Positions 4,685 to 56,421 of a stretch of DNA of 64,000 bases are shown here, piece after piece (within the stretch, counting starts at the first letter, position 1; each line of letters opens with the position of its first letter). Both the position numbers and the translations under genes were made by a program. The notes under the pieces are model-generated. The model was not told the DNA's origin. It searched no databases and saw only the letters and a program-made list of their open reading frames with translations. The stretch is from Buxus sempervirens. Its lineage: Eukaryota > Streptophyta > Magnoliopsida > Buxales > Buxaceae. The stretch spans positions 33,621,439-33,685,438 of the forward strand of contig OX387191.1 in the NCBI GenBank assembly GCA_947561395.2, given 5' to 3'.

Positions 4685-5801
4685 CCGTTTGGTAACGCTT
4701 TTCAGAAGTACTTTTTTGCTTTTGAAAGCAAAAAATTGCTTTCAAAAACAAAAGTGTTGTTTATTTATGCACACATGAAGCAATTTGTAGGAAGCAAAAA
4801 AGCAATTTCATTGCTTTTCAAAAGAAGCATAAAAATGTTGCTTCTCACTTTAACCATAAATTTACTTTCTTGCTTCTAAAACCCTCGACACAAAACTAGA
4901 CCGAGAAAAAATTGACCCATCATGTCCAATCCAACCCGAATAAACGGGTTCGGGTTGACTCGTGTAATAGTTGGGTCGGCTTCGAGTTGGGGAGTTAGTA
5001 ACCCATTCGTATTCAGGTCAACTCGAATCTAGTCCAATAATGATCAGTTTTAACCTGATAATGACCTGTTTAACACGATAATTGCCCGTTTAACCCGATA
5101 ATGACCCGCTTAACCCGATAATGATCCGTTCAACCCGATAATGACCCGTTTAACACAATAATGGCCCGATTAACCCGATAATGATCCGTTCAACTCAATA
5201 ATGATCCGTTCAACTTGATAATGACCCGTTTAACTCGATAATGACCAGCTTAACCTAATAATGATCCGTTTAACCCGATAATGACCCGTTTAACTTGATA
5301 ATGGCTCGTTTAACTTGATAATGGTTTGTTTAACTCGATAATGACCCGTTTAACATGATAATGAACCATTTAACCCTAAATTGTATCACTAATTCACGTT
5401 ATTTTCTATTGGTGTATTTTTTATAATTAAAAAATAAAAAATTTTAATCGGGTTGGTGGGTTGAACTCGATTATTGGCGAGTTGGGTTTGGTTTTGGGTT
5501 TTCCCAACCCACCAATAAACAGATTCAATTTGAACTGACCCGATTATTGCTCAACTCGTTATAATATACGTCAAGTATATTTTTAAGTAGAATGCATCAA
5601 CTGTTTACGATAGTTTTATATGATAGCATAAAAGCAATTTATATGCTACTGTAGTTACTAAACATGTTTTTTTGCTTCTTAGTAGCAAAGCAAAAGTTTA
5701 CCAAATAGCTTTGCTTCAACAAAAGATCTTTTGAAAAGCAGAAAAGTACTTTTTTGCTTTCTTGCTTTTGAAAGCAAGAAAGCAAAAGCGTTACCAAACG
5801 G
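4685..5801. mobile_element. Non-autonomous TIR DNA transposon carrying a minisatellite
   Basis: The left end CCGTTTGGTAACGCTTTT is matched in inverse orientation at the right end (CGTTACCAAACGG near 5789-5801). Subterminal blocks of mirrored gcttttgaaagcaa motifs lie next to both ends. The body holds a 20-bp tandem repeat (5036-5376) and Tat-free AT-rich sequence, with no transposase. The flanks are aaagta and aaactc; no clear target duplication was found, so the superfamily (hAT or another) stays open. Confidence 0.65.
5036..5376. repeat. 20-bp minisatellite, about 17 copies
   Basis: Tandem degenerate copies of ATAATGACCCGTTTAACCCG, with variants such as gatccgttcaac and gacccgcttaac. The spacing of exactly 20 bp holds across nearly all copies. 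It lies centrally inside the TIR element and is flanked by related, more diverged cgggttcgggttgac-type sequence. Confidence 0.85.
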
Positions 5802-11159: not shown

Positions 11160-11249
11160 TGTAGACACCCCAAATTGCACAAACAATCATCAAAAATCAT
11201 TATCTCCTGGAAAGCCAGCATAGAAATTGAAGAAAATGAATTTTTACCT

Positions 11250-11391
11250 GTATCCGGTAACTCAAGCCGGATACAAGCAGGCCTTTTCGTATCCGGTAGC
11301 AAGTACCGGATACAAGCAGTGCTTAGTGTATCCGGTACCATGTACCGGATACCTTAAGGCCCATGTGTATCCGGTCTGACATACCGGATAC
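11250..11391 (+). repeat. Four 25-bp palindromes at 39-bp spacing
   Basis: Palindromes at 11250-11274, 11289-11313, 11328-11352 and 11367-11391, each with arms GTATCCGG / CCGGATAC (one or two bases longer or shorter). The start-to-start distance is exactly 39 each time, leaving 14-bp unrelated spacers. The array lies about 155 bp upstream of the TATA box. Confidence 0.9.
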
Positions 11392-11545
11392 ATTAAGTTT
11401 GCTCAAAATTAGGGTTTTCCGAGAGAAATCACTTGTTACCATCATGTCCCTCATTAAATGAGGGGAAATCTCAGAAATAACCTTAGGGTTAAGGTTGGGG
11501 GGTTCTAGACATTAAGTTGTGTCTACCAATGACCTTAGCCTTTGC

Positions 11546-11556
11546 CTATAAATAGG
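11546..11556 (+). promoter_or_regulatory. LTR core promoter TATA box
   Basis: CTATAAATAGG in U3, followed about 30 bp later by a purine-rich leader. The same wording occurs at the equivalent place in the LTRs at 45468-47785 (47378-47388, minus) and 48128-50292 (49354-49362, minus). Confidence 0.75.
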
Positions 11557-13459
11557 AGACTCCTCCTTGAGCAAGAAAAAAAAACTGAACTCTTGTTTTG
11601 AATTCTCGCAAAGAAGAACTCCAAGAGAAGAAGAAAACCGCTGCGGAATCGCCTCCAGAACTCAGGTAAGCCTCAACTTTTCTTTTTTATTTTCTGTCTT
11701 TACATTCCTAGATCTAGATCTCTTCTTCTACCTTTCTGTAGAATAAAGCCTTGTTTGTATGTGTGGAAATCCTTCCCCGGCTCAAAGTATCTCAAGACTC
11801 CCCTAGCCGTAAAACGTGAAGGCGGATCTAGGAGAAACGAGACTGGGGATTGACCCTAGCGCTAGAACCCATGTAGCATAAGGCCTTTTTGATTGATTGT
11901 AAACCGTTCCATATTCAAAGTACCCTTGATTATCTTGAAGAACCGTATTTAACGGGGAGAGAGAACAGAGGGAAACGATAATGGAACGGAACCCTAGGCT
12001 ATCTTAGAACCCTATTTGGATGAATATGTATGCATGCTATTGATCTTGTTTGGTTTTTTTACACTTGCACATACATATCACTATTTTGGCTGGATAGGCT
12101 CATATTTGGGGGTTTATTGCATTTATTGTGATAAATCTCAAATAAATGGCCTCAATCAATTCTGGAATGTCTTTTGGATGATTTTAAAGTATTTGTGTTC
12201 ATCTTGCACGAATCACACATTTTTATCAATTTTCGGATTTGGTTTTTCTTCAAGAGTGGCCTAACTGGACAGCACCTGTACCCTGACTTCGGACGCTCAT
12301 AACTTCATCGTCCGGATGAATTTTGGAGCGATTCCAAAACCATGGGAAAGGTGAGGCTGTCTAGTTTATGTCCACCAAATTTCATAAAGTTCCATCAAAC
12401 GGATTTTTGACACCTCTCTGTCGAAGTTAAGTGGACAGTTCAGGTTCAAATACAGAACTTGTCACTTCGACGGAGCGCCATGTGTTCGTTTTAAGTCCGA
12501 TTCGAGTGATTTTTGTTTCTGAATACTCCTTTATGAGTCTATTTTCGAATCCAGTTAGTTTCATAATTTTTGGATTCCATTTGAATTATTGGTAGCCGAT
12601 TTACTCAGAACTGTTCATTTGTACTTTTCTGGGTAAATCTGTGATCTTCGGGGCCTGTTCGGGAGACCACCCAAGGCACCTCCGACGGGATTTTTGTATG
12701 AGGCTAGTTTCTTTCGAAAGATGGCCATACAAACTTCAATCACACCAAATTTCGTGGACTTTTATGTAGTGGATTTTTCTAGACAATTTTCCAAAGTTGC
12801 CCACTTACCACTTTTAAAAATCCCCAGCAGCAACTTCAATGGAGCATAACTCCTAGATTTTTCATTGGAATGAAGTGAAATTTTGCATGAGACTCTTATT
12901 TACCCTAATCTTTCAAATGGATTCGGTTTGGTTCAACTTAAAATGGTATTTGAATGATTTCAAGGCAAATGGCATACTTTTTACCAAACTTCCCGGATTT
13001 GATTCAACTTAGTTTTGAGCAACTTGTGCTTTGATTTCCATCCTTTTGTGGTATTCCAGAAATGATATTGACATAAGAGAGGATCTAGAATCCATTTAGA
13101 TCTTCATGTGAAAATATCATACATTTGACATTTTTCAAGGTTTTTCATGATGTTTAGCAAGCTTTCTTACTTTCTTTATGCATGAACATACACTTGGCTA
13201 CCACTTCGTGTGGATGAATGGGGGTGCCTAATACCTTCCCCCGTTCATAATCTAATCCCCTTACCCATCTCTGGATTTAATTTTTAAGTAGGGTTATTTT
13301 TACCCTAGAATTGGCATTTTTGCACTTTTTGATGATTTAAATATTTTGGTGTCCATTCTCACCCCAAAATCATGAATGGTGGCGACTCTCCCATTTCTGC
13401 GTTGAGCCCATGTGTTGACGGAGGGATGATCATTCCGGTGATTTTTCCCATGTCTCACA

Positions 13460-18800: not shown

Positions 18801-20730
18801 TGTGAGACATGGGAAAAATCAATATAATGATTCCCTATCATCACATGGGATTGAGACAAAGGAGGAGTCACCACTATTCAATTTTAGGTGTGAATGGACA
18901 CCAAAATCATCAAATAAAATACAAAAAGTAAAGCTAAATTAAAATAATTCTACTTTAAAAAAATAACCAGAGATGGGTAAGGGGATTAGATTATGAATAG
19001 GAGAAGGTGTTAGGCACCCCTATTCATCCACACAAAGTGGTTGCCAAGTATTTTTCATGCTAGAAAAATGTTTGCTAATAAAAAACCAAATTAAAGTATG
19101 AAAAAGAACAAAAAGAATGTATGGCCCAATTAATTCTGGACCCTTCATATGAATATACCATCCTGAGGGTTTAATGATGGAGTAAAAAAAAAAGATAAAA
19201 ATCAAAGAAAGCAAACCTAAAGTAAAACGCCAAAAAGGCTAGATTTAAGTTAAATCCTTGAAATAAAAATTAAAATCAGAATATTGAGGAATTAAACCTA
19301 AACAATCTAGGGTATAGATCTAGTCAAAATCTCTCATTAATTGAGAGATCTAAACCGAATACACCCATGTTGATGAAAAACATCAAAAGGGAGAGTTTAG
19401 ACTATAGGATCTTCTCTCAAAAATTAAAATAACTCAAAAATAATCTCCTAATGTTGAAGAATCAACCCACACAGTTCTAGGGTACAGAGCTAGTCCAGAT
19501 TTCTCATTGGTTGAGAGATCTAAACCAGATTCACCCGAAAAACATCAAAAGGGAGACTTTAGACCATAGGATCTTCTCTCAAAAATTAAAATGACACAAA
19601 AATCATCTCATAATATGGGAAAATAAATCCGAATCATCTAGGGTACAGATCTAGTCCAGATTTCCCATTGGTTGAAAGACCTAAACCAGATACACCCAAA
19701 AAACATCAAAAGAGAAAGTTTGGTCTTCTCTCAAAAATTAAAATAACACAAAAATCATCTCATGAAACCCTGGAGGTTACTTTAAGGCTTATGATTTCAG
19801 CCCTACCATATTGATCATGATTGATCCGAAATCTTAGCCTAACAACAACCAAAAGAAAGAAAATAATATAAAAAAAAAAAAAACAAAAGAACAAAACCTT
19901 AGGAAGAAAATAAGATCTAATGCTATGAACAGCATAGAACCATGGTATTCCTCCATATTTCAGAAATAAACCATCACATATACACACAAAGTATTCTAAA
20001 GACTCATATCAACAGATTACAACACAAAAGGGTCTATCCTACGGATCCACCTGTCCCCCTTTCCCCTAGCTCTCTCTTCACATTTTACGGCTAGAGAGTA
20101 GTTTTGAGGTACTTGGAAGTAGGTTTGGGTAACAACCACACATAGCCCTTATTCTACAAAAGAAAGTAGAAGACAAAATAATCCTAGAATTTAAAAACAA
20201 AAAATAAAAGAAGAGAAGAGACATACCTGGATTTCTGAAAGTAGAGAGGCAGGGGTTCCCTTCTTCACTTGGAGCTCTTCAATCTCCAATTTTTAGCCAT
20301 TTGCTTGAGGAGAGGCCCCTTATTTATAGACAAACTCAAAGGTAATGAAGCCCTAATGGTAGACACAAAAGTGTGTCTAGAACCTTTCAGCTTAACCCTA
20401 AGGCATGGACTTGGGGGAATATGGTTAATCTCGGAGGCTAAATTCAAGAATCCCCACTTCTTAGACAGAGGTATAACAGTAAATAAGTTAAAACTCTCAG
20501 GATTTTCCAATTTGGAGTAAACACATTAGTATCCGACAACACAGGTCGGATACAAACAAAACTCTTTGTATCCGAAATTAAATTTCGGATACATTGGAAA
20601 TTGTTTGTACCTAAAAACTATTTTCGGATACAGAGAAATAAGCTTTTATCCGAATTTTAATTTCAGCTACAAAAGAAAAACTGTTTTTTAATGCTTTTGG
20701 CCAATTACAGTGCAATTTGGGGTGTTTACA
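18801..20730 (-). mobile_element. Solo LTR with hairpin array, minus orientation (Tat/Ogre-like)
   Basis: Read on the minus strand it starts TGTAAACACCCCAAATTGC (20730) and ends ...CATGTCTCACA (18801). The flanking 5-bp repeats are gcatg (18796-18800) and gcata (20731-20735), one mismatch. Length 1930 bp. It has a TATA box near 20321-20328, a 39-bp-period hairpin array upstream at 20529-20670, and a TGGTGACTCC motif (18864-18873, minus) 63 bp before its 3' end. The core promoter wording (gcttgaggagaggcccc...atttata) is shared with the element at 48128-58887. Confidence 0.85.
20529..20670 (-). repeat. Four 25-bp palindromes at 39-bp spacing
   Basis: Units at 20529, 20568, 20607 and 20646, each 25 bp. 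Arms differ between units but pair within them: GTATCCGAC/GTCGGATAC in the first, GTATCCGAAATT/AATTTCGGATAC in the second. The third and fourth are partly decayed but keep the register. Confidence 0.85.
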
Positions 20731-33882: not shown

Positions 33883-35057
33883 TGAAAGAGTAGAGGACTA
33901 CTCTATAGGTCCACGATCTACAACAATTAAGAATTTAACAATGCGGAAACATACACATAGAGAATTATACGAGGAAACCTAAATCCAGATCCAGGAAAAA
34001 CCTCGAGTCTATATGAGGCGACTAACCCTTCGAATTTCCACTATTGAATGAAAAGACAATTACAAAGGAGCACACACTTAACCTTTACAATTGAACTCAC
34101 TCAACAGCAATCCACAGCTCGAATCCACGAACTGCAACACAGCTTGAATCCACAAGCTGCAAACCACGATCAATCCAGATCGCAAACAATCACTCAACAG
34201 TGATCCACAGTTCGAATCCATGAACTGCAACACAGCTTGAATCCACAAGCTGCAGAACACGATCAATCCAGATCGCAACAATCACCTCAGAGTCCACTGA
34301 GACGATCCAATGCAGTAGGAATCCACCTCTGCATCTAACAAAGTCGATCACCAATCCAGGCGATCACACGATCAGGTGAAGTTCCGAATTGAAGAAGAAT
34401 CCTCAACCTTCAATTCCAGGCGATCTATCTCAGATCTCCCCCTCACTCGATCACCGACTCTCTAAAGAAGAATTGATCGAATCTCGAACACCTCAAGATC
34501 CGAAATCAAATTGATCCAAAGAAAAAAGTCATTTCTAAAAAATTACAGCTCGTCTATTTAAAGGAGAAAACTCAGATCGCGTCGAGCGCTGGTGGCGTCG
34601 TGGTGCGATCGGGGTAGACGGCTGGAAGCAAACTCAAGTCCCGCTTAGAACAAGTTGAATCAGATAAGGGCGCGTTGCTAGCGGGAGGGAACGCGGCATG
34701 TACACAGCTGATCATAGAATCTTCAATCTCGCTCTGCGCTACCAGCGGTGTGTCGGCGTCGCCTTACGACGCTAGTGCACGTACCTTACTTTCAAAGCAC
34801 TGTTTCACTTATGCACTGCCAGCGGAGTGGCAGCGGCGTTGTTCATCGGAAGTGCCTTTACAAGAGATGCTTTATTTAGACAATCTTTCATTTCCTTAAG
34901 CTACCAGCGGCGTGGTAGCTGTGTGGCAGCATCGTCTTCTTCTTCTTTACTAAATTCACTGAATTTTCATTATTTAATCTGCACATCTTGAAGATTATTA
35001 GAAGACATAATTTGTCAAACATTTGCCATAAAGGAAGTGTGAGTTTTCACACTTACA
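33883..35057 (-). repeat. 3' LTR of the copia element
   Basis: 1175 bp, minus-strand TGTAAGTGTG...CTCTTTCA. TATA-like CTTTAAATA at 34555-34563 (minus). Upstream of it are palindromes: AGCTACCA...TGGTAGCT at 34899-34920 and CTGCCA...TGGCAG at 34816-34833. Two copies of a 93-bp tandem unit (acagctcg/acagttcg at 34114 and 34207) replace the three 69-bp copies of the other LTR. Confidence 0.9.
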
Positions 35058-35068
35058 ATCTCCCCCTT
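35058..35068 (-). other. Polypurine tract next to 3' LTR
   Basis: Minus strand AAGGGGGAGAT directly before the 3' LTR start at 35057. It is the expected primer for plus-strand DNA synthesis. Confidence 0.85.
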
Positions 35069-35516
35069 GGCAAATGCCTGACAACAACCTTAAACCAGTG
35101 TTTAATATCAACCTCAGTTAATATTGATTTCCATTTAAGAATTTAAAACCACACTGATAAGAGAGACACAATGATTTGGGAGAATCCAGAATTTCATTCA
35201 TTAAAAAAAAATCCTTTCTTCCAACATATACACATATATCCAACCAAATACATACACAGCCAATCAACAGAAAACTTCCCTCACAAACCCATAGAAAACT
35301 CCCCCACAAACCAACTTTCAGAAACTACTAAAAACAACATAAGAACAGCATAAAGAAGAAAAAAAATAACAACAAGCAGCAAGCAGCAACAACCCAGCAG
35401 CAAGCAGCAACAACCCAGCAGAATCATCATCCAAAAAACTCCCCCTTTCTGGAAGGTGGTTTTGGTTCCCAAGTCCTTGAGTAATGCTTGTATGCGTCTT
35501 GGGACCGAGAGTGCAG
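35069..35516. other. 3' untranslated region of the copia element
   Basis: No gene. Contains an A-rich stretch and two tandem copies of a cagcaagcagcaacaacc-type unit at about 35370-35423. A duplicated cccccttt (minus AAAGGGGG) at about 35440-35448 could be a second polypurine tract. Confidence 0.5.
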
Positions 35517-36716
35517 CTAGCAGAGTTTGTGATCCATCTCCAATTGTGTCCTTCGAATGCTGTTCAGAAAATGATCAGCTTCATTCTGCATTCGTTGCTG
35601 AGCAGCAACATCCCGTTGTACCTCACCACAGGTAAAATCAACATCCTTTGCAAGCTTCTCCATCTTCTCTTGGGTCTCTGATTTGAACATGCTCATCATG
35701 AGCATGTGAGCCCTAACTTCAGAATTGAAAGCCTCCTGGGAGGCTTGCATGGAATTCAGTTTTTCCTTAATTGCCACAGCATCAGAGCTGGACAAAGAGG
35801 ACTGAGAAGAAGAGGGTTCAGAAGACACCAAACGAAAAGGATTTGCTCGTTTACTTCTAGTCAGAGTGGAGGAATCAATGGGAGGTCTGGGATGCAGAAT
35901 CATTTCAACAGGATCAGGGAGAACCCCCTGGTGAATGCAGAGATAAGTGATGAAGATGCCAAACGGAAGAGCAGCAGTCTTGGATTTTAAATTCCGAGAC
36001 TGAAGGATCTGATGGAATATGATGAAGGGAAGACAGACACTGTCTTTGTTCCAGATAGCATGAAGAAGTCGAGCTCTAGAGTGAGAAATCTCAGAATGGT
36101 GATCTGAGGGAACAAGAGAAGCACACACAAACAGATTCAAGATCCGGAGAAGATCTTGAAGAGAGCCATGAGGAAGGTAGTTGGGCTTGTTTTTGATGGA
36201 GGTGGGAGCACCCTGAACAATAAGAGAAGGAATAATAGACTCCATGGGAGGATCAGTATGAGAATCAAGAAAGTTAAAGGAAGGAGAATCAACAAGGGGC
36301 AGTTCGAGAAGAGAGGAGATAAGCTCTTTCGAGAAGTCGAAAGAGATACCCCTGACATAGGCTTTGACATAGCCTTGATTGGCAAGATGAAGATGGTGGA
36401 GGTTCGAATAAAATTCTCGAACCAGGTCTGGATATGCAAAACCACTGATCAAAGCAAATTTTTTCCAACCATTGTCCGAAAACAATGAGTAGAGATGAGA
36501 TTCAGAAAAAGACTTAAGCTTAATGGCCCTTTCCAAAAGGAGTGGCCTGTGCTTGAAGAACTCATTAAAATCAGATAAACCATTCCCAAGGAATAGTTCA
36601 GAGGAATAAGAAGGGGAAGGGGGTCTCACTGGAGGAGAAGAGATAACAGGAGAAGACCTCACAAGAGGAGAAGATGTGGAAGGAGAATCAGTCCTTGATT
36701 TTCTCTTGAGAGGCAT
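35517..36716 (-). CDS. Third ORF of the Sirevirus element (envelope position, PF20167-like)
   Basis: 399 codons, intact from a true ATG. The N-terminus (1-40) is Ser/Pro-rich. Residues 81-140 (GWKKF, LVREFYSNL, YVRGISFDFS, LLELP) and 249-265 (ALPFGIFITYLCIHQGV) match the pattern of the family called putative plant transposon protein (PF20167), commonly found in third ORFs of plant LTR elements. Residues about 310-399 form a Ser-rich stretch then a long charged coiled coil. I see no convincing signal peptide or transmembrane segment, so an envelope role is doubtful despite the position. Function is unknown. Remaining open while pol is broken is notable. Confidence 0.75.
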   Translation of the reverse strand: MPLKRKSRTDSPSTSSPLVRSSPVISSPPVRPPSPSYSSELFLGNGLSDFNEFFKHRPLLLERAIKLKSFSESHLYSLFSDNGWKKFALISGFAYPDLVREFYSNLHHLHLANQGYVKAYVRGISFDFSKELISSLLELPLVDSPSFNFLDSHTDPPMESIIPSLIVQGAPTSIKNKPNYLPHGSLQDLLRILNLFVCASLVPSDHHSEISHSRARLLHAIWNKDSVCLPFIIFHQILQSRNLKSKTAALPFGIFITYLCIHQGVLPDPVEMILHPRPPIDSSTLTRSKRANPFRLVSSEPSSSQSSLSSSDAVAIKEKLNSMQASQEAFNSEVRAHMLMMSMFKSETQEKMEKLAKDVDFTCGEVQRDVAAQQRMQNEADHFLNSIRRTQLEMDHKLC

Positions 36717-37980
36717 GGTGAAGATTTAGAAAAAAATGAAAGAGAGAGAACAAACAGACAGAACCAAGCAATGCACGATAAAGCCCTAATGGCAGAATAA
36801 TCTACCAAACCCTAGCTAAGAAGAACGAGAGAAGGCCACTGAAATAGGAAGCAGAAAATGGAGAAGCAAGATGAAGACAGTAAAAAAAATTTTACCTGAA
36901 CAGTGGATAAGGTGACGGAGGGTAAGCACGAAGGCAGAGAATGACCACGACGCGAGGAGCGAGGTGAAAAGCAGAGAGAGTAAAAAAAACAGAGGTAAAA
37001 AAAATGAAATAGATTTCCCCCTTTTATAGGGAAAAATATTTCGCTGCCAGCGTGCATCCAGCGACGCATACCACGGCAGGTGCTAAAGCACGAAGTAGAG
37101 GAGAGGCTACCAGCACACTTCTAGCGATGTAGAAGGTGCACATGCACACTCAAAAAGAAATACACTCATAAGGCAAAAATTTATAAAAAGAGTTTGAACT
37201 ATTCTTCATGAAAAAAAATCATACTTCTAAACACAAAGCTAAGATTTTAACTAAACTAAAATCATCCAGATAATCAACTGTTATTCAATCCAAGAAGTAC
37301 TTATTCACAAAACTGATCTTAAGGAACATATCAAGGTTAATTCAGATGTGACACATTTCATATCTATGACCAAAATTCCTTCATGGTTTCTCATACTATA
37401 AATTTTCTTCAAGATATTGAGCTCATATGCATATTAATTAGTCAATGCTTGTGTAGTGTGTGAAAAACATTTTTTTTGACTTTTACACTTTATACATATG
37501 GAAGGCTATTTTAGTGTAATCATACTTGGAAAGTATAGACATACCCCAACTTCATTTTGGTGGCCTTCGCACATCAGAGATAGGTAGCCTTTTCTGATCT
37601 CTTTTTCTTTTCTTTTTGTAGAAGGCATTGACCCTTAAAAAACCTGAGTTTACAGTTCATTCCAAGGATATACCTTCTTTCTCTTTTTCTTTTTGAGAAT
37701 TACAGTGGCTTTCACTCTAATCTCTATGGCAGCCATTTCCAAAACTTTTCTTTTCATAAAGTTGATAGCCTATAGAATCCAAGCTTCAAACACACAATAA
37801 ACTTCAATGCACAAAAGTGTTTAAGACAAAAAATGATAGTTGATTATAAGACATTTCTATCAATATGCATAGACTCAAGCTTCCTGAATTAAGATTTCAG
37901 TATCAAGAACACACAAGATCATTTTGAACAGATATGTAGATTATTTTACATCTAAATTAACTCAAAACAGAACCTGATTT
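36717..37980. other. Non-coding gap between RNase H and third ORF, with putative internal promoter
   Basis: 1.26 kb without a gene, as usual in Sireviruses. On the minus strand a TATA box CTATAAAAG (37021-37029) is preceded by an imperfect palindrome (37042-37079, arms containing CTGCC/GGCAG and CCAGCG blocks) and followed about 305 bp later by the ATG of the third ORF. The ccagcg/gctaccagc wording recalls the palindromes in the LTR. Confidence 0.5.
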
Positions 37981-39063
37981 TCAGTTTTGAGAACAAACTC
38001 CTAGGGATTTCCTAAGAGTTTCAAATCTGTTCTGATCTAAAGGTTTAGTGAAAATGTCAGCCAACTGTTTTTCAGTAGATATATATTCAATCAAAACAGT
38101 TTTGTCTTCAATTAACTCTCTTATAAAGTGATGCCTGATGTCTATATGTTTGGTCCTTGAGTGTTGAACAGGATTTTTGGAAATATTTATGGCACTTTGA
38201 TTGCCACAGAAGAGAATTGTTTGATCCTGATCTAAACCATAATCAGAAAGCATTTGTTTCATCCAAATTAGTTGAGTACAACTGCTACCTGCAGCAATGT
38301 ACTCTGCTTCAGCAGTACTCAGAGAAACTGAGTTTTGCTTTTTGCTTAACCAAGCAATGAGATTATTACCCATATAAAAGCAACCACCAGAGGTGCTTTT
38401 CCTATCATCCATACACCCAGCCCAATCAGCATCAGTGTATCCAGTCAGATATGGGTTTGTTTCTTTGGAAAACCAAATTCCCAGATCAACAGTACCATTA
38501 ACATACTTTATAATCCTTTTAATAGCATTTAGATGAGATTCTTTAGGATTGGCCTGATATCTTGCACAAACTCCAACACTAAAACTTATATTAGGTCTAC
38601 TTGCTGTTAAGTACAGAAGACTTCCAATCATTCCTCTGTACAATGTAGGATCTACATCCTTCCTAGATTCATCTTTTCCAAACTTTAAACTAGTACTCAT
38701 AGGAGTCCTAGCATGTTTTGCATGAACCAAACTGAATCTCTTGACTAGATTTCTTGCATATTTTGCTTGAGAGATAAAAATCCCTTGATTTGATTGATAA
38801 ATCTGAAGTCCTAGGAAAAAGTTCAGTTCACCCATCATACTCATCTCAAATTCACTTTTCATTAAGTCTCCAAAGGAGTGAGCATGATTTTCAGAAGTAG
38901 ATCCAAACACTATGTCATCAACATAGATTTGAGCAATCAAAATATGTTTGGACTCTCTTTGAATAAAGAGAGTTTTATCCACATTTCTTCTCATAAAACC
39001 AGATTCAAGTAAAAAAGAGGTGAGTCTCCTTATACCAAGCTCTAGGAGCTTGTTTGAGACCAT
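37981..39063 (-). CDS. Copia RT second part and RNase H (frameshifted)
   Basis: Carries the RT catalytic YVDD at residues 47-50 (38914-38925), [11 protein letters not shown], and the copia linker [16 protein letters not shown]. RNase H follows with GYTDADWAG (first Asp), [23 protein letters not shown] (Glu), and the closing [12 protein letters not shown] and ADIFTKPL motifs. The terminal TKPL plus short tail is normal for copia pol. All residues expected for RT and RNase H activity in this part look intact, so the damage lies mainly in the two frameshifts upstream. No spliced or recoded link to the preceding frame is evident. Confidence 0.9.
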
Positions 39064-40216
39064 ACAAAGCCTTGTTCAGCTTATAAACATGTTTAGGATG
39101 ATTTGAGTCCTCAAATCCTTTAGGTTGCTCTACATAAACCTCTTCATTCAGATATCCATTCAAGAATGCACTCTTAACATCCATTTGAAACAGTTTGAAC
39201 TTCAAATAGCAAGCAATGGACAATAGCAATCTGATTGACTCTAACCTAGCTGCAGGGGCAAAGGTTTCATCAAAATCTATTCCTTCTACTTGAGTGTATC
39301 CCTGAGCAACAAGCCTAGCTTTATTTCTGGTTATAACCCCATTTTCATCAGATTTGTTCTTAAAAATCCATTTGGTTCCTATCACATTCAGATTAGAGGG
39401 TCTTTCAACCAATTCCCATACATCATTTCTAGTGAATTGGTTTAGTTCTTCATGCATAGCATTCAACCAAGAGTCATCCAACAAGGCATCTTTATAAGAT
39501 TTTGGCTCAAATTGAGATAGATAAGAAGAAAATCTTACCTCATTATGTAATTGATGTCTTGTTCTTACACCATCTGAAATATTTCCAACAATTTGCTCAG
39601 TTGGGTGATCTTTGAGAGTTTTTGTCAGAGGAACAACTTCATTGCTTGAGGAAGCATCTCTGATTTCATCCTCTTCATCTACAACCTGTAAAAGTTCACA
39701 GTCAGTTCCTTCATCATCTATTAACACATTAATAGATTCCATTACAACAGATTTTTTCAAGTTAAAAACTCTGTATGCTCTACTAGAAGAAGAATATCCT
39801 AGAAAGATTCCTTCATCACTTCTAGAATCAAATTTTCCTAGATTTTCTCTGTCCCTTAGAATATAGCATTTACTTCCAAAGACTCTAAAATATTTTAAGT
39901 TTGGCTGTTTTCCTTTCCAAATTTCATAAGGAGTTTGTTTCCACCCAGATCTGACATATACTCTGTTACTTATATAACAGGCAGTGTTTATTGCTTCAGC
40001 CCAGAATTTTGTTGACACTTTCTTGGCTATCATTATGGTTCTAGCCATTTCTTGCAAAACTCTATTTTTCCTTTCCACAACTCCATTTTGCTGTGGAGTC
40101 TTAGGAGCAGAAAATTCATGTTTAATTCCTTGTTCTTCACAGAATTTGGAGAACATCTGATTTTCAAATTCTGTCCCATGATCAGATCTTATTCTAACAA
40201 TCCTCCATATTTGCAA
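39005..40216 (-). CDS. Copia integrase end and RT first part (frameshifted)
   Basis: Overlaps the upstream frame by 28 bp in another register. Residues 9-19 give [10 protein letters not shown] with the second catalytic Asp; [11 protein letters not shown] has the catalytic Glu of the DDE triad. The copia RT follows: [44 protein letters not shown] and [12 protein letters not shown] (first catalytic Asp), then LKQAPRAWY. The frame closes at 39005 because of a second single-base shift inside RT, before the YVDD box. The listed start is not a natural initiation site; the segment is part of a polyprotein. Confidence 0.9.
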
Positions 40217-42936
40217 GTTCTTTCAACTTGAATTTGACAGCACAATTGTTTAAAACAATCAAAACATTCAGATTTTTCTCTTAGAAAATTTACCCAGGTG
40301 TATCTACTGTAGTCATCTACAGCAACAAAGATATACCTCTTTCCTCCAAGACTTTCAGTCTTTGTAGGTCCCATTAAGTCCATATGAATCAGTTCTAATG
40401 GTCTAGAGGTTCCTACAATGTTGGTTTTCTTGTGTGTGGCTTTGATTTGTTTTCCTTGATTGCAAGGACCACACATTCCTTTCTTTTTATTGTTCCCAAA
40501 CTTGGGAATTCCTCTAACCAATTCAGACTTAGAGATTTTTGACAAATCTCTATAGTTAATGTGACCAAGTCTTCTATGCCACAAATCAATTTCATTACAT
40601 ACAGAAGGTTTTAAAGATTTTTCATTGTTTCCAATGATTCCATAACAATTGTCACTTGTTCTTACACCTATAAGAACAGTTGTACCAGAATTATCCAAAA
40701 TTTTACATTCTTTTCTGGTAAAATTGACAAACAACCTTGAATCACATAACTGTCTAATACTGATTAAGTTTGCCTTTAAACCAGAAACAAATAAAACATT
40801 TTTTAGACAAACTCCATTTGGACCAGTTACTGTTCCTTTACCTTTAACTTGAGAAGTGCTTCCATCACCAAATGTTACACTTCCACCAAAATATTCTTCA
40901 AAAGTACTGAACATAGATTTATTTCCACACATATGTCTTGAACAACCACTATCCAAGTACCACATGTTTACATCATGAACTTTTAAAGCAATATGAACCA
41001 CATTTGCAACTAAGGAATCTTTTATAACCCAAATCTGTTTTTCAGGAGTTTTCTGAGAAGTACCTTCATCAACTACTTGAGATTTTGAAGGAAGTTTCTT
41101 TGACAGATTTGTAACTTCCTTATTTAATGTTTCAGTCAATTTTAACAGGGAATCAAATTTGTTGTATAAATCCAGGGACTGACTTTGATTTACTTTCCTC
41201 TTATTGTCAAAATATCCCTCAGGAAAACCATGCAAAACATAACACTTTGGTCTTATATGACCCTTTTTATTGCAGTGATGGCACACAGGTATGAACCTAT
41301 GTTCAGAAAAATCAACATTTCCAGATTTGACAGTATTTCCAAACTGTACAGATTTAGATTTCTCAGATGTTGAAGATTTACCTGTTGGTCTTACTTCTCC
41401 AGCAGAGATTTTCTGTGAAGATTCCTTATTTTGATTACTTACACTCATTCTCTTTTCAGCAGAATTTGAGCTTTCAGGAACTTCCTTTGAAGTTGATTCC
41501 TCATCCATTTGATGATTTCCTGCAGAAGAATTTGAAGCATTAGATTTTATTGAATTTGAAACTTTCTCAAGTTTAATCACTTTACCTTGAAGTGCAGAAA
41601 TCTGAGCTTCCTTTTCTTTTAATTTTTTAGTTTTTTCAGTCAAAGAAGTTACCAGAGAATTTTCTTTGGCATGTCTTTCAAGTAACTTCTTGTTTATTGA
41701 ATTTATTTCTGCAAGAGCTTTATTTTTCTTTGTTTCTGATTCCTTCAATTTTTTTCTCAGTTTCTTGACTTTGTTCTGAGCTCTATTGAATTCCTTATAG
41801 AGCTGATTGTAGGCTTCTTGTAATTCTTCTTCATCATCTGATAAAGTCTCTTTATTATCTCCTGCAATTCCAGAGATTGAACTACCAGAAGAAGATGAGT
41901 AAAAGGAATTGAAAGCAGTAAAATTAGCAGAAATATCCTCATCAGATTGTGAAGAATTATCAGTATTACTGTCATCCCAAGTAACCTGATAATTTGTCTT
42001 TTTCTTTTTATCCTTTGAGGGACAATCAGAGGCAACATGTCCAAATCCTCTACATTTGTAACATTGAACTTCATTATTCTGAGAAAATTTCTTCTCCTTT
42101 CTTAGATCAGAAATTTTCTTATCAGATCTCCTATTTGATCTGTCCATGGATGATGAAGAATTAGATTGTCTCTTTTTAAACATTCTCTTAAACTTTTTAG
42201 CTAAGAGAACTAATTCATCCATATCTACATCAAAATTATCTGATTCTTCAGTATTTACAGATTTTAGAGCTATTCCTTTACTCCTTTTAGGAATATTCAG
42301 ATCTAGCTCATAAGTCTGTAAAGATCCTACCAGATCTTCAATTCTCATGGTATCCACATCTTTTGCCTCTTGAATGGCAGTAACTTTTGGTCTGAATTTT
42401 TCAGGCAAAGATCTCAAGATCTTTCTAACAACCTTAGATGTAGAGATCTTTTCTCCAAGGTTAAAACTCGAATTAACAATATCCGAAAGTCTAGCATAAA
42501 ATTCATCAAAAGACTCATCATCTTTCATGTATAGAGTTTCGAAAGATGTTGTAAGTCTTTGAAGTCTAGACAGCTTGACAGCTGAGGTTCCTTCATGAGT
42601 GACCTCAAGAATGTCCCAAGCTTCCTTACCTACTTCACATGAGGAAATTCTCCTGAATTCCTCAACACTTACAGCACAAAATAAAGCATTCATTGCCTTG
42701 TTGTTCCATCCACATAGATCAGATTCAGCTTTACTCCACTGATCATGAGGTTTAGGCATCACAACACCTCCTTCTGTTGTGATCTCAGGTGGATGATAAC
42801 CATTATATACTGAGAGCCAGACACGCTCATCGATAGATTTCAGGTAAGCTCTCATCCTTGCTTTCCAGTAAGAATAATTGTTACCTTCGAATAATGGAGG
42901 TCTAGAGGCAGATCCTCCTTCTTTTCCAAAGTCCAT
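40189..42936 (-). CDS. Copia Gag-protease-integrase (first part of gag-pol)
   Basis: 915 codons from a true ATG, 60 bp after the LTR. Gag begins with the UBN2-type region ([13 protein letters not shown]). It has a CCHC zinc knuckle near residue 291 ([14 protein letters not shown]), a Lys/Glu-rich coiled coil about 370-460, and a second CCHC near 550 ([14 protein letters not shown]). The aspartic protease shows [10 protein letters not shown] near 657. The integrase starts with LWHRRLGH and CGPCNQGK (HHCC zinc site, about 782-825), then HMDLMGP with the first catalytic Asp near 852. The frame is lost after CQIQVERT by a one-base change at about 40200-40216, before the second catalytic Asp. Gag packages the RNA; protease and integrase mature the particle and insert the cDNA. 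Confidence 0.9.
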
Positions 42937-42981
42937 GCTATAGATCTAGATCACACTTTGTATAACAATTCAAAGTGAATA

Positions 42982-42994: not shown

Positions 42995-42996
42995 AT

Positions 42997-44207: not shown

Positions 44208-44925
44208 ATATATATGTGCACAAATGCTTGATAACCACTATCACCCTCAAAAGCAAGCATAAAAATCATCTAAACAAAAATATTTGAAGAAGGGATAGAG
44301 GGGAGATTAATATAGGGGGTACGATGGATGAGTTTCAAAGGGAACATGCTCCCTCACTTGAATGGAAAGGGTATTAACAAACAAGACCTTAAAAGCTTAA
44401 AGAAGAAAACATGGAGACAAGCCCTCATCCTCTCTCGGAACTATAAGCATGCTCCTCCTTTTACCATGGGGTTTTCTCATTCAAAATGAAGAGAAAAAGA
44501 ACAAAGAAGGAGATGATGACATGCTAGAAGAAAGAAAGACTACATACTAAAAAAGAAATGGAGAATATCACAACTTGCTTGGAATGTGCTCATATCCATA
44601 TATGATGAACAAATACAAGGGGAGGGCTTACCTTGGGGGCTAGAGCCCTTTTTGAGATGTGGTTGAGCTTCCTTGAAACACCCCAAGGGCTGGAGAGGCT
44701 CCTCCTTGCACCAAGAGCTCCTCTTTGGCCTCTCTCAAGACTTTGGATGAGGAAGAAGAGGGTATGGAAGGGTGGAAGAGCCTTGAGATGGTGTTTGGAG
44801 TGACTTGGGGGGCAAAAGGAAGGGGTTTCGGATTAGAGACAGTGGGGGAAGAATGGGTGGAAATGAGCAAAAGGGAGCCAACTCCGACCAAGGGGGTGCT
44901 GCCCCCTTTTTATAGAAAAAAACTT

Positions 44926-45073
44926 GTATCTAACATTTATTGTCGGATACACTAGACCTTGTGTGTATCTAACCATGGAGGTCATGTCGGATACACTAGA
45001 CCTTTTGTGTATCCGACCATGGAGGTCAGATACACTAAGTCCTCTTTGTATCCGACATTTTTATGTCGAATAC
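44926..45073 (-). repeat. Palindrome array, mainly 39-bp spacing
   Basis: Units start at 44926, 44965, 45009 and 45048. Spacings are 39, 44 and 39; the second unit is 30 bp long instead of 25, which accounts for the extra 5 bp. Arms are GTATCCGAC/GTCGGATAC with decay (gtatctaac, cagatac). The array begins 11 bp from the TATA box. Confidence 0.8.
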
Positions 45074-45467
45074 AGACAAAATTATTTCAAAAATTAAATT
45101 CTGTCAGTGAATCTGTCGGAGAATCTGAAAGGATCCGATGAACAAATCTTTTGTATCTGAAATATAATTTCAGATATGAAGAAAAACATGCATATCCGAC
45201 CATATATGTCAGATACAAAAAGGTGAATTTTTTATATTTACAGATTGCCCCCCAGATTTGACCGATTTGACTGATTTGACACCTGAGATAATCGCAGATT
45301 GCCCCCTGGCTATTTGCAGATTAATCCTTGAGATATTTTTGCATCAATTGAGTATTCGCGGATTAATCCTTGAGATATTTATCTACTCTTTCGCCATGTG
45401 TGCTGCTCTTTTGCCACGTGCAGTTTCTGGCATTGCTGCCCAAAAACTTCAACTGCTCATATCTTCC

Positions 45468-47785
45468 TGTGAGACACGGGAAAAAATCACCGGAATGATC
45501 ATCCCTCCGTCAACACGCGGGGCTCGACGTAAAAATGGGAGAGTCGTCACCATTCAGAATTTGGGTGTGAATGGACACCAAAAGAATTAAAAATAAGCAA
45601 AAATAGCCAAAAAGTGCTAAAAGGCAAATTCTAGGATAAAAATAACCCTACTTGAAAATCAAATCCAGAGATGGGTAAGGGGATTAGATTATGAACGGGA
45701 GAAGGTGTTAGGCACCCCCGTTCATCCACACGAGGTGGTTGCCAAGTGTTTTTTCATGCTAAAAAAAATAGGAAGCTTGCTAAAAATCATGAAAAGCCTT
45801 AAAAAAGGAACAAGTGTATGATATATTCACACGAAGATCCAAATGAATTTTAGATCTTCTCTTATGTCAATATCATTTCTGAAATGTCATAAAAGGATAA
45901 AAATCCAAGCAAAAGAATGTACAAAGCCAATTAGAATCAAATCTGGAAAATTCGGTGAAAAGTAATGCCATTTATCTTGAAATCATTCAAATCCAATTTT
46001 AAATCAAATCAAACCAAATCCATTTGAAAGATCTTAGTAAATAAGAGACTCATGCAAAATTTCAAGTCAATCCGGTTGAAATCCTAGGAGTTATACTCCT
46101 TTAGAGTTGCTGCTGGGGATGATTAAAAGTAACAAGTAGGCAACTTTGGAAAATCACCTAGAAAAATCTACAGCATAGAAATCTGTGGAATTTGGTGTGA
46201 TTAAAGTTTGTATGGCCATATTTCAAAAGAAACTAGCCTCATACAAAAACTCATTCGGATGTGCCTTGGGTGGTCTCCCGAACAGGCCCTGAAGATCACA
46301 GATTTACCCAGAAAAGTACTAATGAGCAGCTCTGAGTAAATCTGTTACCAATAATTCAAATGGAGTCAAAAAATTATGAAACCAACTGAATTAAAAAATA
46401 GACTCATAAAGGAGTGCCCAGAAATAAAAATCACTCGAATCGGATTTAAAACGAACACATGGCGCTCCGTCGAAGTGACAAGTTTTGTATGGGAACCTTA
46501 ACTGTCCAATCAACTTCGATAGAGAGGTGTCAAAAATCCGTTAGATAGAAATTAATGAAATTTGGTGGACATAAACTAGACAGCCTCACCTTTCCCATGG
46601 TTCTAGAATCGCTCCAAAATTCATCCGGACGATGAAGTTATGAGCCTCCGAAGTAAGGGTACAGGTGCTGTCAAGTTAGGACCTTTTTGAGTAAAGCAAA
46701 TGCAAAAATGTGACAAAGTGTGTGCAATTCGTGCAAGATGAACACAAACCTTTAAAAATCATCCAAAGACATTCCAGAATTGATTGAGGCCATTTATTTG
46801 AGATTTATCACAATGAATGTAATAAATCCCCAAATGTGAGCCTATCCCGCCAAAATAGTGATATGTATGTGCAAGTGTGAAAAACCATACAAGATCAATA
46901 GCATGCATACATATTCATCAAAATAAGGTTCTAAAATAGCCTAGGGTTCCGTTCCATTATCGTTTCCCTCTGTTCTCTCTCCCCGTTAAACACGGTTCTT
47001 CAAGATAATCAAGGGTACTTTGAATATGAAACGGTTTACAATCAATCAAAAGGCTTTATGCTACATAGGTTCTAATACTATGGTCAATCCCCAGTCTTGT
47101 TTCTCCTAGATCCCGCCTCCACGTTTTACGGCTAGGGGGAGTCTCGAGATACTTTGAGCCGGGGAAGGATTTTCACACACAAAGAAGGCCTTATTCTACA
47201 GAAAGGTAGAAGAAGAGATCTAGATCTAGGAATATAAAAAACAGAAAATAAAAGAAAAGTTTGAGGCTTACCTGGGTTCTAGATGCGATCCCGTAGCGGT
47301 TTTCTTCTTCTCTTGGAGTTCTTCTTGGCGAGAATTCAAAACAAGAGTTAATGGCCATTTGCTTAAGGAGGAGCCTCCTATTTATAGGCAAAGGTTAGGG
47401 TTAGGGTTGGTGAGAATGGTAGACACAACATAATGTCTATAGCCCACCAACCTTAACCCTAGGGCTATTTCCGAGATTTCCCCTCATTTAATGAGGGATA
47501 TGATGGTAAAAGTGAAAAGCTCTCGGAAAACCCTAATTTTGAGCAAAACTTGTGTATCCGATATATTAGGCCGGATACACAAGGGCCTTAAGGTATCCGG
47601 TATATAATACCGGATACACTAAGCACTGCTTGTATCCGGTATTTGTCACCGGATACGAAGAGGCCTGCTTGTATCCGGCCTGAGTTACCGGATACAGGTA
47701 AAAATTCATTTTCTTCAATTTCTGTGCTGGCTTTCAAGAAGATAATGATTTTTGATGATTGTTTGTGCAATTTGGGGTGTCTACA
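45468..47785 (-). mobile_element. Solo LTR with hairpin array, minus orientation
   Basis: Minus-strand start TGTAGACACCCCAAATTGC (47785), end ...GTGTCTCACA (45468), with perfect 5-bp duplications cttcc at 45463-45467 and 47786-47790. Length 2318 bp. Clearly the same family as 11160-13459, with colinear similarity through the whole LTR including the cccaaggca...tcccgaacaggcc block. TATA box at 47378-47388 (minus). The U5 motif is changed to TGACGACTCT (near 45540-45549). Confidence 0.92.
47554..47695 (-). repeat. Four 25-bp palindromes at 39-bp spacing
   Basis: Units 47554-47578, 47593-47617, 47632-47656 and 47671-47695. Arms GTATCCGG/CCGGATAC, start-to-start exactly 39 bp. Same layout as 11250-11391, in the opposite orientation. 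Confidence 0.9.
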
Positions 47786-48127: not shown

Positions 48128-50292
48128 AGGAGATTAGGTTATGAATATGGGAAGGTGTTAGGCACCTCTATTCATCCACACAAGGTGGTTGCCAAGTATT
48201 ATTCATGCTAAAAAAGCTTGCTAACAAAAATCAAATCAAAGTAAAGAAAAAGAGTAAAAATATGTATGGCTTTTTCTATATGAATGGTCCAATTAATTCT
48301 GGACCCTTCATATGAATATACCATCCTTAGGGTTTCATGATTGAGTAAAAATCAAAATAAACATCAATGAAAATAAACATAAAGCACAACCTAGAATCAG
48401 CCTTAGGTTAAATCATTACAGTATTGAAAGATCATCATGATACAAGTAAAAATCTTTTGACAAAAACATTGAAGAATAAACCTGAACTATTTAGGGTACA
48501 GATCTGGACCAGATCTCTCATCAGTTGAGAGATCTAAACCAGATACACCCATGTTGATGAAAAACATAAAAAAAGGGAGAGTTTAGACCATAAGATCCTC
48601 TCTCAAAGATTAAAACAACTTAAAAATCACCTCATGAAACCCTAGAGGTTACTTTAAGGCTTCTGATTTCAGATTTACCATATTGATCATGGTAGATCCA
48701 GAATCGTAGCCTATAATAATCAAAAGAAAGAAAACAGTGATGTGGGTGTAGTTGTATGGAAAAATCAAAACTCTTGGAAGAAAAGAGGATTTGATGCTAT
48801 GAACAGCATAGATCCATGGGATTCCTCCAGATTCAGAATAAAATAAGAACACAACATAAACAGTATGTTAAAAGACACATATCAGAGATTATAACACATA
48901 TGGTTCTATCCTACGGGTCCATTCCTGTCCTCATTTCTCTTAGCTCTCTCTTCACTTTTTACGACTAGAGAGGAGTCTTGAGGTACTTGGAGTTAGGTTA
49001 TGGGGTTACAAACAAAATCAAAAGCCTTATCCTACAGAAAGCCAAAAAGATCAGAATATGGGGTTCTATCCTAAGGATCCATCCTTGTTCTCTTTTCCCC
49101 TAGCTCTCTCTTCATGTTTTACGGCTAGAGAGGAGTCTTGAGGTACTTCGAGGTAGGTATGGGGTTACAAACACAAAGTAGGCCTTATTCTACAGAAAGG
49201 GAGAAGATTAGACTAACCCTAGAATTTAAAAACAGAAAAGAAAAGACGAGAGAAGCTTACCTGGATTTGAGAAAGCAGAGAGGCAGGGGTTCCCTTCTTT
49301 ACTTGAAGCTCTTTTAGCTTCAATTCTTAGCCCTTTGCTTGAGGAGAGGCCCTCTATTTATAGGCAAAAGTAAGAGTAATAATGTCCTAAGGGTAGACAC
49401 AAAAGTGTGTCCAGAACCTTCCAACTTAACCCTAAGGCATTAGTTCAGAGGCATTTGGTTAATCTCGGAGGCTAAATTCGGGAATTCCACTTCTCAGACA
49501 GAGGTATAGAAGTAAATAAGTGAAAACTCTCGGGATTTTTTTCATTTAGAACAAAACATTAGTATCCGACAACTCAGGTCGGATACAAACAAAAATCTTT
49601 GTATCCGAAATAATATTTCTGATACAATGAAAAATGCTTTTATTCGAAATATAATTTCAGATACAAAGAAAAATGCTTTTATCCGAACTTTAATTTCGGT
49701 TCATGGCAAAAATGACTCTCTGCACAGCTTCTGCATGGCATTGACCCTTACCTGCACAGGCAATACTTATTTACATGTAATATTGTTTAAGTAAATGTCC
49801 TCGTATTTTTTAATCTCCATTTACTTAAAATATAACATGTAAATAAGCAAACACCCCCCATTTGAATCCATTAAAAATAGTTCCAGACCCAAATTCCAAG
49901 TGAATAAAAAGTCAACTTTCCAGTTCAAGGCTAAATTTTGGTTTTTCAGGTCCAGTAAAAAGATTCAACATGTTAATACTGAGGTATTTATCAAGATTTA
50001 AAGGATCAAAAAATTCATTTATGCAATAACATTGCTAAAGCCTGATTACCAAGAAAAATTATCTTGAAATCTTGCCTTAAAAAATATTTCAATTTTTGGG
50101 GTCAAAAGTCAACAAAATTCAACCGGAAAAGTTTGACTTTGTGCAAAAGATTGAATTTGGGCCCTTTCCTTTGTGGTTTTGGATTCAAATGGGTTAAGGA
50201 TCTCAAACCCAATGCTAAGAATTGAAAATTCTAATAAAATATTTCTCTCCTTCAAGATTTATAAAAAATCGTGCAATTTTGGGGTGTCTACA
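48128..50292 (-). repeat. 3' LTR (truncated) of the gag-only element
   Basis: Begins TGTAGACACCCCAAAATTGC at 50292 on the minus strand. Contains the array at 49562-49703, TATA box CTATAAATAGAGG (49354-49362), a CCAG|GTAAGC donor-like site near 49258, and R-U5 down to 48128, where the LTR 44208-48127 begins. About 350 bp between 48760 and 49130 show an internal duplication of the tcctac-ggtcca...ctctctcttca block. Confidence 0.85.
49562..49703 (-). repeat. Four 25-bp palindromes at 39-bp spacing
   Basis: Units start at 49562, 49601, 49640 and 49679. First arms GTATCCGAC/GTCGGATAC, second GTATCCGAAAT/ATTTCTGATAC, third ttattcgaaat/atttcagatac, fourth decayed. The array lies about 200 bp upstream of the TATA box at 49354-49362. 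Confidence 0.85.
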
Positions 50293-56279: not shown

Positions 56280-56421
56280 GTATTCGAAATACCAGGTCGG
56301 CTACGGGTACATTTTACTGTATCCGAAATAAATGTTCGGATACACACAAAATTTCTTTTTACCGAAATTAATTTTCGGATATGAATGAGGTACAGTGTTA
56401 CCGACCTGTGTTTTCGGTTAA
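56280..56421 (-). repeat. Extra 39-bp-period palindrome array inside the element body
   Basis: 25-bp units at 56280, 56319, 56358 and 56397. The best is GTATCCGAA...TTCGGATAC (56319-56343); the others keep partial pairing. Layout and following atgccaaaatgac wording match the U3 array of the 3' LTR (49562-49703 and catggcaaaaatgac), so a U3 segment appears to be embedded in the leader. Confidence 0.75.

Follow-up and report, generated by a model that had tools for sequence, protein, structure and literature searches.

Sireviruses are Ty1/copia retrotransposons whose LTRs carry palindromic repeats, called RM boxes, with a CGG/CCG core. These palindromes precede the TATA box of the LTR; elements that bear an ENV gene have them upstream of ENV as well, and the accessible text of the study that describes them calls the motif Sirevirus-specific (Bousios et al. 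2010, PMC2829016). Ogre elements are known for two other features. They share with Retand elements an additional RH domain (aRH) that lies between RH and integrase, and extra open reading frames (ORFs) with a plant mobile domain (PMD) are recorded in the accessible part of a survey as an Ogre feature, present in 57% of the Ogre elements surveyed (PMC6317226).

Antisense genes of retrotransposons have been considered in related work. The Grande gene23 is described as having its own upstream promoter, and a regulatory role has been proposed (PMC7264820, PMC11963269). A review raises the idea of a possible anti-silencing action of element-encoded PMD proteins (PMC8616336), and Arabidopsis genes that need MAIN and MAIL1 are reported to share a promoter motif (PMC7156037). 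In the accessible portions of two of these sources, it is treated as an open question what the antisense extra genes of plant retrotransposons do and what the plant mobile domain does (PMC7264820, PMC8616336).

Here we describe arrays of short palindromes in a stretch of 64,000 nucleotides, hereafter the window, which is part of contig C14 of a source genome of 676.5 Mb, the only genome sampled. Like the RM boxes, these arrays are found near LTR TATA boxes and near an accessory gene, yet their carrier is a Ty3 element.

Experimental procedures

Stretches fetched from the source genome are designated by L numbers, of which L001–L015 are unused, as they duplicate places covered by later loci. 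Loci L016–L033 and L077–L085 were drawn from the top of the match lists for the unit pattern or the junction pattern. The A-type sample, L057–L076, was picked by the GAC/GTC pattern and L086–L096 were picked by the mixed-junction pattern, and therefore counts that include these pattern-picked loci are not unbiased.

Redundancy was reduced separately for each count. For covariation across units, identical units were counted once, which reduced 141 units to 99. For the first within-array shuffle, 40 arrays were reduced to 25 at >92% identity and two chance sub-matches were removed, whereas arrays >95% identical, the PMD1 loci L037–L056 and one chance sub-match were dropped from the larger shuffle set. 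Conservation among LTR tetrads was computed from 17 non-redundant tetrads out of 27. The count of half-site agreement was reduced from 40 arrays to 20, a cut that removed L082 (GA.AA.GG.GA), an array contrary to the half-site reading, as a near-copy of another; an uncut repeat in which all 40 arrays were kept, as well as milder cuts, were also run.

Results

Palindrome tetrads in the window

The pattern GTATCCG-N11-CGGATAC is matched 12 times in the window, compared with 0 matches in 100 dinucleotide shuffles. Each unit is 25 bp long and is composed of arms of ~9 bp that flank an unpaired 7-bp centre. A reading of the letters alone, referred to here as the sequence-only reading, had placed tetrads of such units in five LTRs. 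The four regular tetrads that begin at 11250, 20529, 47554 and 49562 were confirmed in position and in their 39-bp spacing (Table 1). The array at 44926, which had been counted with them, is irregular, with spacing of 39/44/39 followed by two further units, and the tetrad at 56280 had been overlooked. Moreover, the LTR start that had been assigned to 44208 is not supported: a neighbouring Ty1/copia LTR has its outer end at 44209, and the partner of that LTR ends at 35059.

Table 1. Coordinates of LTRs, palindrome arrays and TATA boxes in the window
Feature	Position	Strand	Units, spacing or basis
LTR family A (TGTAGACACC...CTCACA)	11160..13459	+	inverted copy at 45468-47785, 87.7% identical; ends mapped
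Palindrome tetrad, U3 of LTR family A	11250..11391	+	4 x 25 bp at 11250/11289/11328/11367, 39 bp
TATA box TATAAAT	11547..11553	+	155 bp downstream of the 11250..11391 tetrad
LTR family A	45468..47785	-	identity to 11160..13459, and ends
Tetrad of family A LTR	47554..47695	-	47554/47593/47632/47671, 39 bp
TATA box	47381..47386	-	in LTR orientation, 167 bp downstream of the 47554 tetrad; position calculated from that distance
LTR family B (minus-strand start TGTAAACACCCC)	18801..20730	-	sequence comparison and ends
Family B tetrad	20529..20670	-	20529/20568/20607/20646; TATA ~200 bp downstream in LTR orientation
Tetrad, second family B LTR copy	49562..49703	-	49562/49601/49640/49679; TATA ~199 bp downstream
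Sixth tetrad, A-type	56280..56421	-	56280/56319/56358/56397; absent from the sequence-only reading
Family C arrays	44926..45216	-	44926, 44965 (30 bp), 45009, 45048, then 45153, 45192
TATA box TATAAAAAGG	44909..44914	-	11 bp downstream of the 44926 array

The half-sites that form these units are of two types. Those of the tetrad at 11250..11391 are G-type (GTATCCGG...CCGGATAC), and those of the tetrad at 20529..20670 are A-type (GTATCCGA...TCGGATAC), with two degenerate units; units 3 and 4 are degenerate in both B-family arrays, retaining 10–11 of 14 arm bases. The minus orientation of the LTRs that hold the 20529, 47554 and 49562 arrays was judged by the U3 flank. The flank of the 56280 tetrad resembles the leader arrays of the elements on contig C1 described below, and similarity to the family B LTR end sets in at 58078, ~1.7 kb away from this tetrad.

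Several other features of the window and of related loci were recorded. The tetrad at 11249–11392 has dyad symmetry as a whole, with 66-nt arms that are 77% complementary, unit 1 being similar to unit 4 in reverse complement. Family C promoters are present at L065, L068, L071, L077 and L093–L096 as well as at 44926–45216 of the window; most family C loci have two groups of units ~70–105 bp apart with a TATA box ~11–12 bp downstream, and asymmetry at pair 8-18 can extend over units in a row. On the minus strand, 33883–44209 is occupied by a Ty1/copia element that has a large gag and a Transposase_32 ORF. Its PPT, AGGGGGAG, is followed by AT/TG, which matches the Sirevirus attachment site as given in the accessible text of PMC2829016, and the palindrome in its LTRs is a different one, CAGCTTGAATCCACAAGCTG, with variants. 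No unit above 10 of 14 arm bases was found in this copia element (34–44 kb). Tandem repeats with 20-bp, 151-bp and 47-bp periods at 5037–5376 and 55276–55874 are unrelated to the palindromes, and neither an Rfam scan nor a tRNA scan of the window gave a match.

Arm sequence and spacing are both conserved

Exact matches to GTATCCG-N11-CGGATAC number 30,553 in the genome, compared with ~2.5 expected by arithmetic for 14 fixed bases, and the reversed control yields 0. The junction between units in the 39-bp register, CGGATAC-N14-GTATCCG, is present 16,882 times, again with 0 for the control. The fixed register proposed in the sequence-only reading is well borne out by tabulation, wherein, of 104 unit intervals, 93 measure exactly 39 bp and a further 4 measure 38 bp (40 arrays from the window and L016–L036, LTR pairs included). 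The same reading had envisaged a protein bound in phase along the array. Because 39 bp amounts to ~3.7 helical turns, phasing on one face of the helix does not follow from this spacing, and that proposal was dropped.

The sequence-only reading had also suggested that pairing and spacing, not sequence, are under selection. Among the 17 LTR tetrads, arm bases 2–7 and 19–24 are 0.94 identical, compared with 0.61 for the centres and 0.60 for the linkers. Values for bases 8, 9, 17 and 18 (0.52), for the 40 bp upstream (0.56) and for the 40 bp downstream (0.74) are likewise below that of the arms. The contrast between the arms and the centres and linkers, together with the kept spacing, indicates that arm sequence and spacing are both held, and the same contrast recurs at the PMD1 promoter described below. 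Thus, the arms conserve sequence as well as pairing, contrary to that suggestion.

Position 8 is either G or A and tends to be uniform within an array, with some arrays mixed. Genome-wide, unlike half-sites are joined at 2,050 of the 16,882 junctions, and mosaic arrays with blocks of A-type and G-type half-sites are seen at L057 and L076. The motif CTGA stands beside bases 8–9 in the TATA-proximal unit of 18 of 23 oriented LTR arrays, 20 of 20 PMD1 arrays and 4 of 4 two-unit arrays, and by this placement it may set the polarity of the array. A comparison of the two-unit pattern with viral contigs, a set that may omit records of the source genome, gave no match.

The arrays are carried by an Ogre-type element with antisense PMD genes

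Matches listed for the pattern came in pairs ~20 kb apart. Four elements fetched from C1 have LTRs of ~2.3 kb that are 98.2–100% identical, and they span 22.4–23.0 kb. One of these, a 22.8-kb Ty3 Ogre-type element (L019–L021), was annotated in full and has the domain order gag, G-patch, RT, RH, additional RH, integrase. This carrier is of the Ty3 kind and has Retrotrans_gag and RVT_1 domains. The ORF at L020:844–4371 includes RVT_1 (196–356), RNaseH (419–549), RVT_3 (604–722) and rve (889–986), so that in this one element the aRH is present between RH and INT; the ORF that extends from L019:6983 to L020:783 is ~60 bp away. Two antisense ORFs with a plant mobile domain are located after pol. 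PMD matches above the cut-off, all antisense, are at L017:6489–7481, L020:6168–7082 and L020:8869–9888, and the other three elements have ORFs that begin or align like the antisense PMD ORFs. Judged by domain order and the PMD ORFs, the carrier is an Ogre-type (Ty3, Tat clade) retrotransposon, which supports the Tat/Ogre-type assignment of the sequence-only reading.

In a genome search for the antisense gene PMD1, the best 121 of 8,369 first-look candidates were scored, all of which are at least 90% identical. Values of pN/pS for PMD1 exon 1 are 0.09–0.17 in six pairwise comparisons among four copies, and this sequence measure shows that the exon is selectively constrained. In L017 and L020, PMD1 appears to be split into two exons, with weak DUF7745 matches that run on in the next ORF. 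This second PMD1 ORF is coiled-coil-like by eye, a feature that would suit a dimer. A protein search with PMD1 against a set of 5.8 billion sequences returned no match at E ≤ 0.001, and AlphaFold2 applied to PMD1 exon 1 with 8 sequences gave no usable model (pLDDT 37.9).

The same array precedes LTR and PMD1 TATA boxes

Each of the four C1 elements has a tetrad at three kinds of site, namely the LTR, the leader and the stretch before PMD1, as well as two units before the 3′ LTR. Seven LTRs retain the TGTAGACACC start, and in these the first unit starts 90 bp into the LTR. The distance from the LTR tetrad to the TATA box is 155–156 bp for 11 of 27 tetrads, 165–167 bp for 10 and 199–200 bp for 2, with LTR pairs counted twice; no TATA box was found for the other 4, all of which are in 601-bp stretches. 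The clusters at 155–156 and 165–167 bp are separated by approximately one helical turn.

In all four elements, a tetrad lies directly upstream of the antisense PMD1 gene and a TATAAAT sequence follows 12 bp past the tetrad. Further PMD1 genes, sampled from the 121 scored, have the tetrad at the same place in 20 of 20 cases, in stretches that end before the TATA box. The presence of arrays at the antisense gene promoter, which had no place in the sequence-only reading, is the strongest functional clue. The flanks of arrays that stand before different TATA boxes are unlike each other by eye. If the TATA boxes are real, then neither array would be contained within the transcript that starts at its own promoter.

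The two-unit array before the 3′ LTR is followed on the minus strand by a clear TATA-like sequence, TTTTATAAG, in two elements and by a degenerate form of it in the other two. It lies ~1.5 kb from the second antisense PMD ORF (PMD2), as measured in one element, and by this position it is tentatively assigned to PMD2. The leader tetrad is located ~1.5 kb past the LTR in the four elements, and also in L031 and L033. No TATA box is visible near the leader tetrads. The leader of L035 has two A-type units, and L030 lacks a leader tetrad after its first LTR array (L030:1975) within the fetched stretch. In unit 1 of the leader tetrad, the two outer arms both depart from the usual sequence, reading ATAACCGG...CCGGTTAA; this form is seen at L019:5278 and in homologues in L016, L022, L025, L031 and L033, one copy having a single further change.

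A predicted PMD1 promoter

The LTR arrays at C1:7667572 and 7695104 are mostly of A type (AA.AA.AG.AG) and have the same orientation, and they were taken as one element. We predicted the position of PMD1 in this element from the distances observed in the first four and fetched 901 bp. This stretch held PMD1 on the strand opposite the LTRs, along with a tetrad of 39/39/39 spacing and a TATA box 12 bp on. The ORF is 84% identical over 131 aligned residues, some of which precede the ATG and hence are not protein, and the 140 bp after the array are 0.84–0.88 identical to four copies. When this promoter was compared with 20 others, the arms were 0.94 identical, bases 8, 9, 17 and 18 were 0.50, and the centres and the linkers were each 0.55.

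Unlike the LTR arrays of the same element, the PMD1 array (L097) is a mixture, AA.GG.GA.GA, so that a single element can carry arrays that differ in half-site type. The idea of a clean G/A switch in half-site specificity across the family is weakened by this mixed array. A leader array guessed for the A-type element proved wrong, L098 being part of another LTR.

Pairing between arms

Across the 99 distinct units, pair 8-18 is formed in 94 compared with 57.6 expected, pair 9-17 in 63 compared with 34.3, and pair 4-22 in 91 compared with 82.2, the last via one unit type. No covariation was detected in these units at pairs 10-16, 11-15, 12-14 or 1-25. Agreement of this kind may be a property of the unit or of the whole array, and shuffling of right arms within arrays distinguishes the two. 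Pair 8-18 is mostly an array-wide trait: 79 of 83 are paired in the 25 arrays against a shuffle mean of 79.0, and 137 of 144 against 136.5 in 41 arrays after a milder cut. Pair 9-17 exceeds the within-array shuffles, with 58 against 50.8 in the 25 arrays (95 of 5,000 shuffles), 74 against 67.0 in the larger shuffle set (23 of 4,000) and 101 of 144 against 84.7 in the 41 arrays, more of which are close kin (1 of 4,000). There are weak excesses in the 25 arrays at pair 11-15 (38 against 32.7; 322 of 5,000) and at pair 4-22 (76 against 72.8; 279 of 5,000). The proposal that both arms change together therefore stands for pair 9-17 within units, but pair 8-18 is mostly set per array and nothing is paired past position 9.

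Half-sites of neighbouring palindromes agree as well as do the two arms of one palindrome. Position 8 is discordant in 4 of 66 comparisons within units and in 1 of 46 between adjacent half-sites of different units (20 arrays). The corresponding fractions are 7 of 143 and 3 of 103 when all 40 arrays are used, and 11 of 87 and 6 of 64 in a larger, partly selected set. Single units in which both arms are switched are present in L086 and L092, and rows of units mispaired at 8-18 are present in L093–L096, a group that derives from the mixed-junction selection.

The RNA of the whole tetrad folds into a very stable hairpin (z −14.4). Wobble pairs of the sense kind at positions 1–9 number 16, compared with 30 of the mirror kind. 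Because the sense count does not exceed the mirror count, nothing points to selection for helices in the sense RNA, and the RNA hairpins suggested in the sequence-only reading are disfavoured in their sense form. In view of the within-array shuffles and the comparison of half-sites within and between units, we set aside the idea that the arms agree mainly because of hairpin compensation, with pair 9-17 as the exception. As a general rule, compensatory pairing is weak.

Discussion

From their sequence and placement, the tetrads are probably promoter-proximal cis-regulatory modules of Ogre-type (Ty3, Tat clade) elements, and as such they would be candidate protein sites common to sense and antisense promoters. 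The 25-bp unit corresponds to an inverted pair of half-sites, GTATCCGR, such that a tetrad offers four pairs, or eight half-sites, with the pairs 39 bp apart. One module lies upstream of the LTR TATA box at the putative sense gag-pol promoter, and another upstream of the TATA box at the putative internal antisense PMD1 promoter. A two-unit version may serve the second antisense PMD ORF, and a further tetrad is located in the leader. A dimeric or paired DNA-binding protein could then occupy the half-sites and couple the sense and antisense promoters. A site for a dimeric protein was one of three guesses in the sequence-only reading, and it is the candidate favoured here. Because the same array stands before the LTR and PMD1 promoters, one binding protein could coordinate both, and the shared array looks like a common switch that coordinates the element's own genes.

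Several other origins for the arrays were weighed against the regulatory-module reading. It is unlikely that the units are maintained as structured RNA or DNA. On that view they would act as hairpins or cruciforms, perhaps as double-stranded RNA that feeds small-RNA silencing or within the 3′ U3 of genomic RNA, and compensatory changes would keep their pairing. The covariation of pairs 8-18 and 9-17 across units, the excess of pair 9-17 in all three within-array shuffles, the leader unit that differs in both arms, the stability of the tetrad fold and the both-arm switches in L086 and L092 are all consistent with such structures. However, pair 8-18 gives no within-array signal, half-sites of neighbouring palindromes agree as well as the arms do, and nothing is paired past position 9. 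Rows of units mispaired at 8-18 exist among the mixed-junction loci, sense wobble pairs are outnumbered by the mirror kind, and the outer arms conserve sequence and not pairing alone. Even less probable is passive inheritance, in which ancestral tandem duplication, gene conversion and template switching, including the correction of hairpin arms during reverse transcription, would have produced the arrays with no function. High copy number, the mosaic A/G arrays and mixed junctions, and the uniformity of position 8 at the array level would all fit this origin. Yet centres and linkers have fallen to 0.55–0.61 identity while the arms remain at 0.94 and the spacing remains exact, which argues that homogenisation of whole units is not what keeps the arms; moreover, the modules precede TATA boxes whose flanks are unlike by eye.

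If the arrays are regulatory modules, then the protein that reads them could come from the host or from the element. LTR promoters commonly borrow host sites, and a host transcription factor alone, responsive to stress or development, might read the array with no element-encoded regulator. This sub-case of the regulatory-module reading has a chance that we place slightly short of even. It also accords with the accessible report that, when Sirevirus motifs were compared with a database, the host sites recovered were mainly stress-related (PMC2829016). Nothing was found against it, and an array placed ahead of element-encoded PMD genes would fit it too. Alternatively, the PMD proteins are the first candidate binders because their genes carry the array. 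In a more speculative proposal that we consider possible but rather doubtful, a sequence-specific regulator would be encoded by the element itself. This regulator, most likely a PMD protein, would bind the tetrads of the LTR, of the antisense promoter of its own gene and of the promoter of the second PMD gene. Such an arrangement would constitute an internal regulon with autoregulation and coordinated sense and antisense control, possibly countering silencing, and Arabidopsis MAIN and MAIL1 would be domesticated relatives of the regulator.

For any protein that binds the arrays, the more than 30,000 exact units in one genome would represent a very large dispersed set of binding sites. A strictly spaced site that is common to the sense promoter and the antisense PMD promoter also makes the question of function testable, in that both a bait DNA and a first protein can be named. 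Among the matches listed in a literature search of titles and abstract openings in open-licence PMC, there was no paper on palindrome arrays in Ogre LTRs.

The VANDAL21 protein VANC21 binds motif arrays. In VANDAL21 anti-silencing, a transposon protein acts on its own family, and the accessible account of this system (PMC8616336) provides the closest functional precedent for an element-encoded regulator, although VANDAL21 is a DNA transposon with another protein, unlike the Ty3 element here. With respect to gene arrangement, Grande, RIRE2 and Retand likewise have an antisense gene between pol and the 3′ LTR (PMC7264820, PMC11963269). Their antisense ORFs encode TRP28 or gene23, not PMD, and a shared palindrome array is not described in the accessible text of these sources; the word palindrome is absent from PMC7264820. 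The aRH and PMD ORFs match those that Neumann et al. (2019, PMC6317226) record for Ogre/Tat elements; their survey, in its accessible part, does not mention regulatory palindromes.

The closest likeness in layout is to the Sirevirus RM boxes as they appear in the accessible text of PMC2829016. In both systems, palindromes with a CGG-CCG core are present in several LTR copies upstream of the TATA box, and extra copies lie upstream of an accessory gene, which here is PMD and not ENV. The Citrus Sirevirus RM sequence, AATCCGGCTWRCCGGATT, resembles the TATCCGG...CCGGATA of the present units. For Sirevirus RM boxes, the number looked for is at least 8 copies per element; there are four per LTR here, and the LTR, leader and PMD arrays together exceed 8. 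The differences are that the carrier is a Ty3 Ogre-type element and not Ty1/copia, that the LTR and PMD1 arrays consist of four 25-bp units in a 39-bp register, and that the accessory gene is antisense. Given the Ty3 carrier, the antisense PMD and the fixed register, we have not filed the arrays as a Sirevirus motif. A palindrome layout at the LTR and at an accessory gene, described for copia Sireviruses, thus exists in a Ty3 element, and this suggests convergent regulatory logic.
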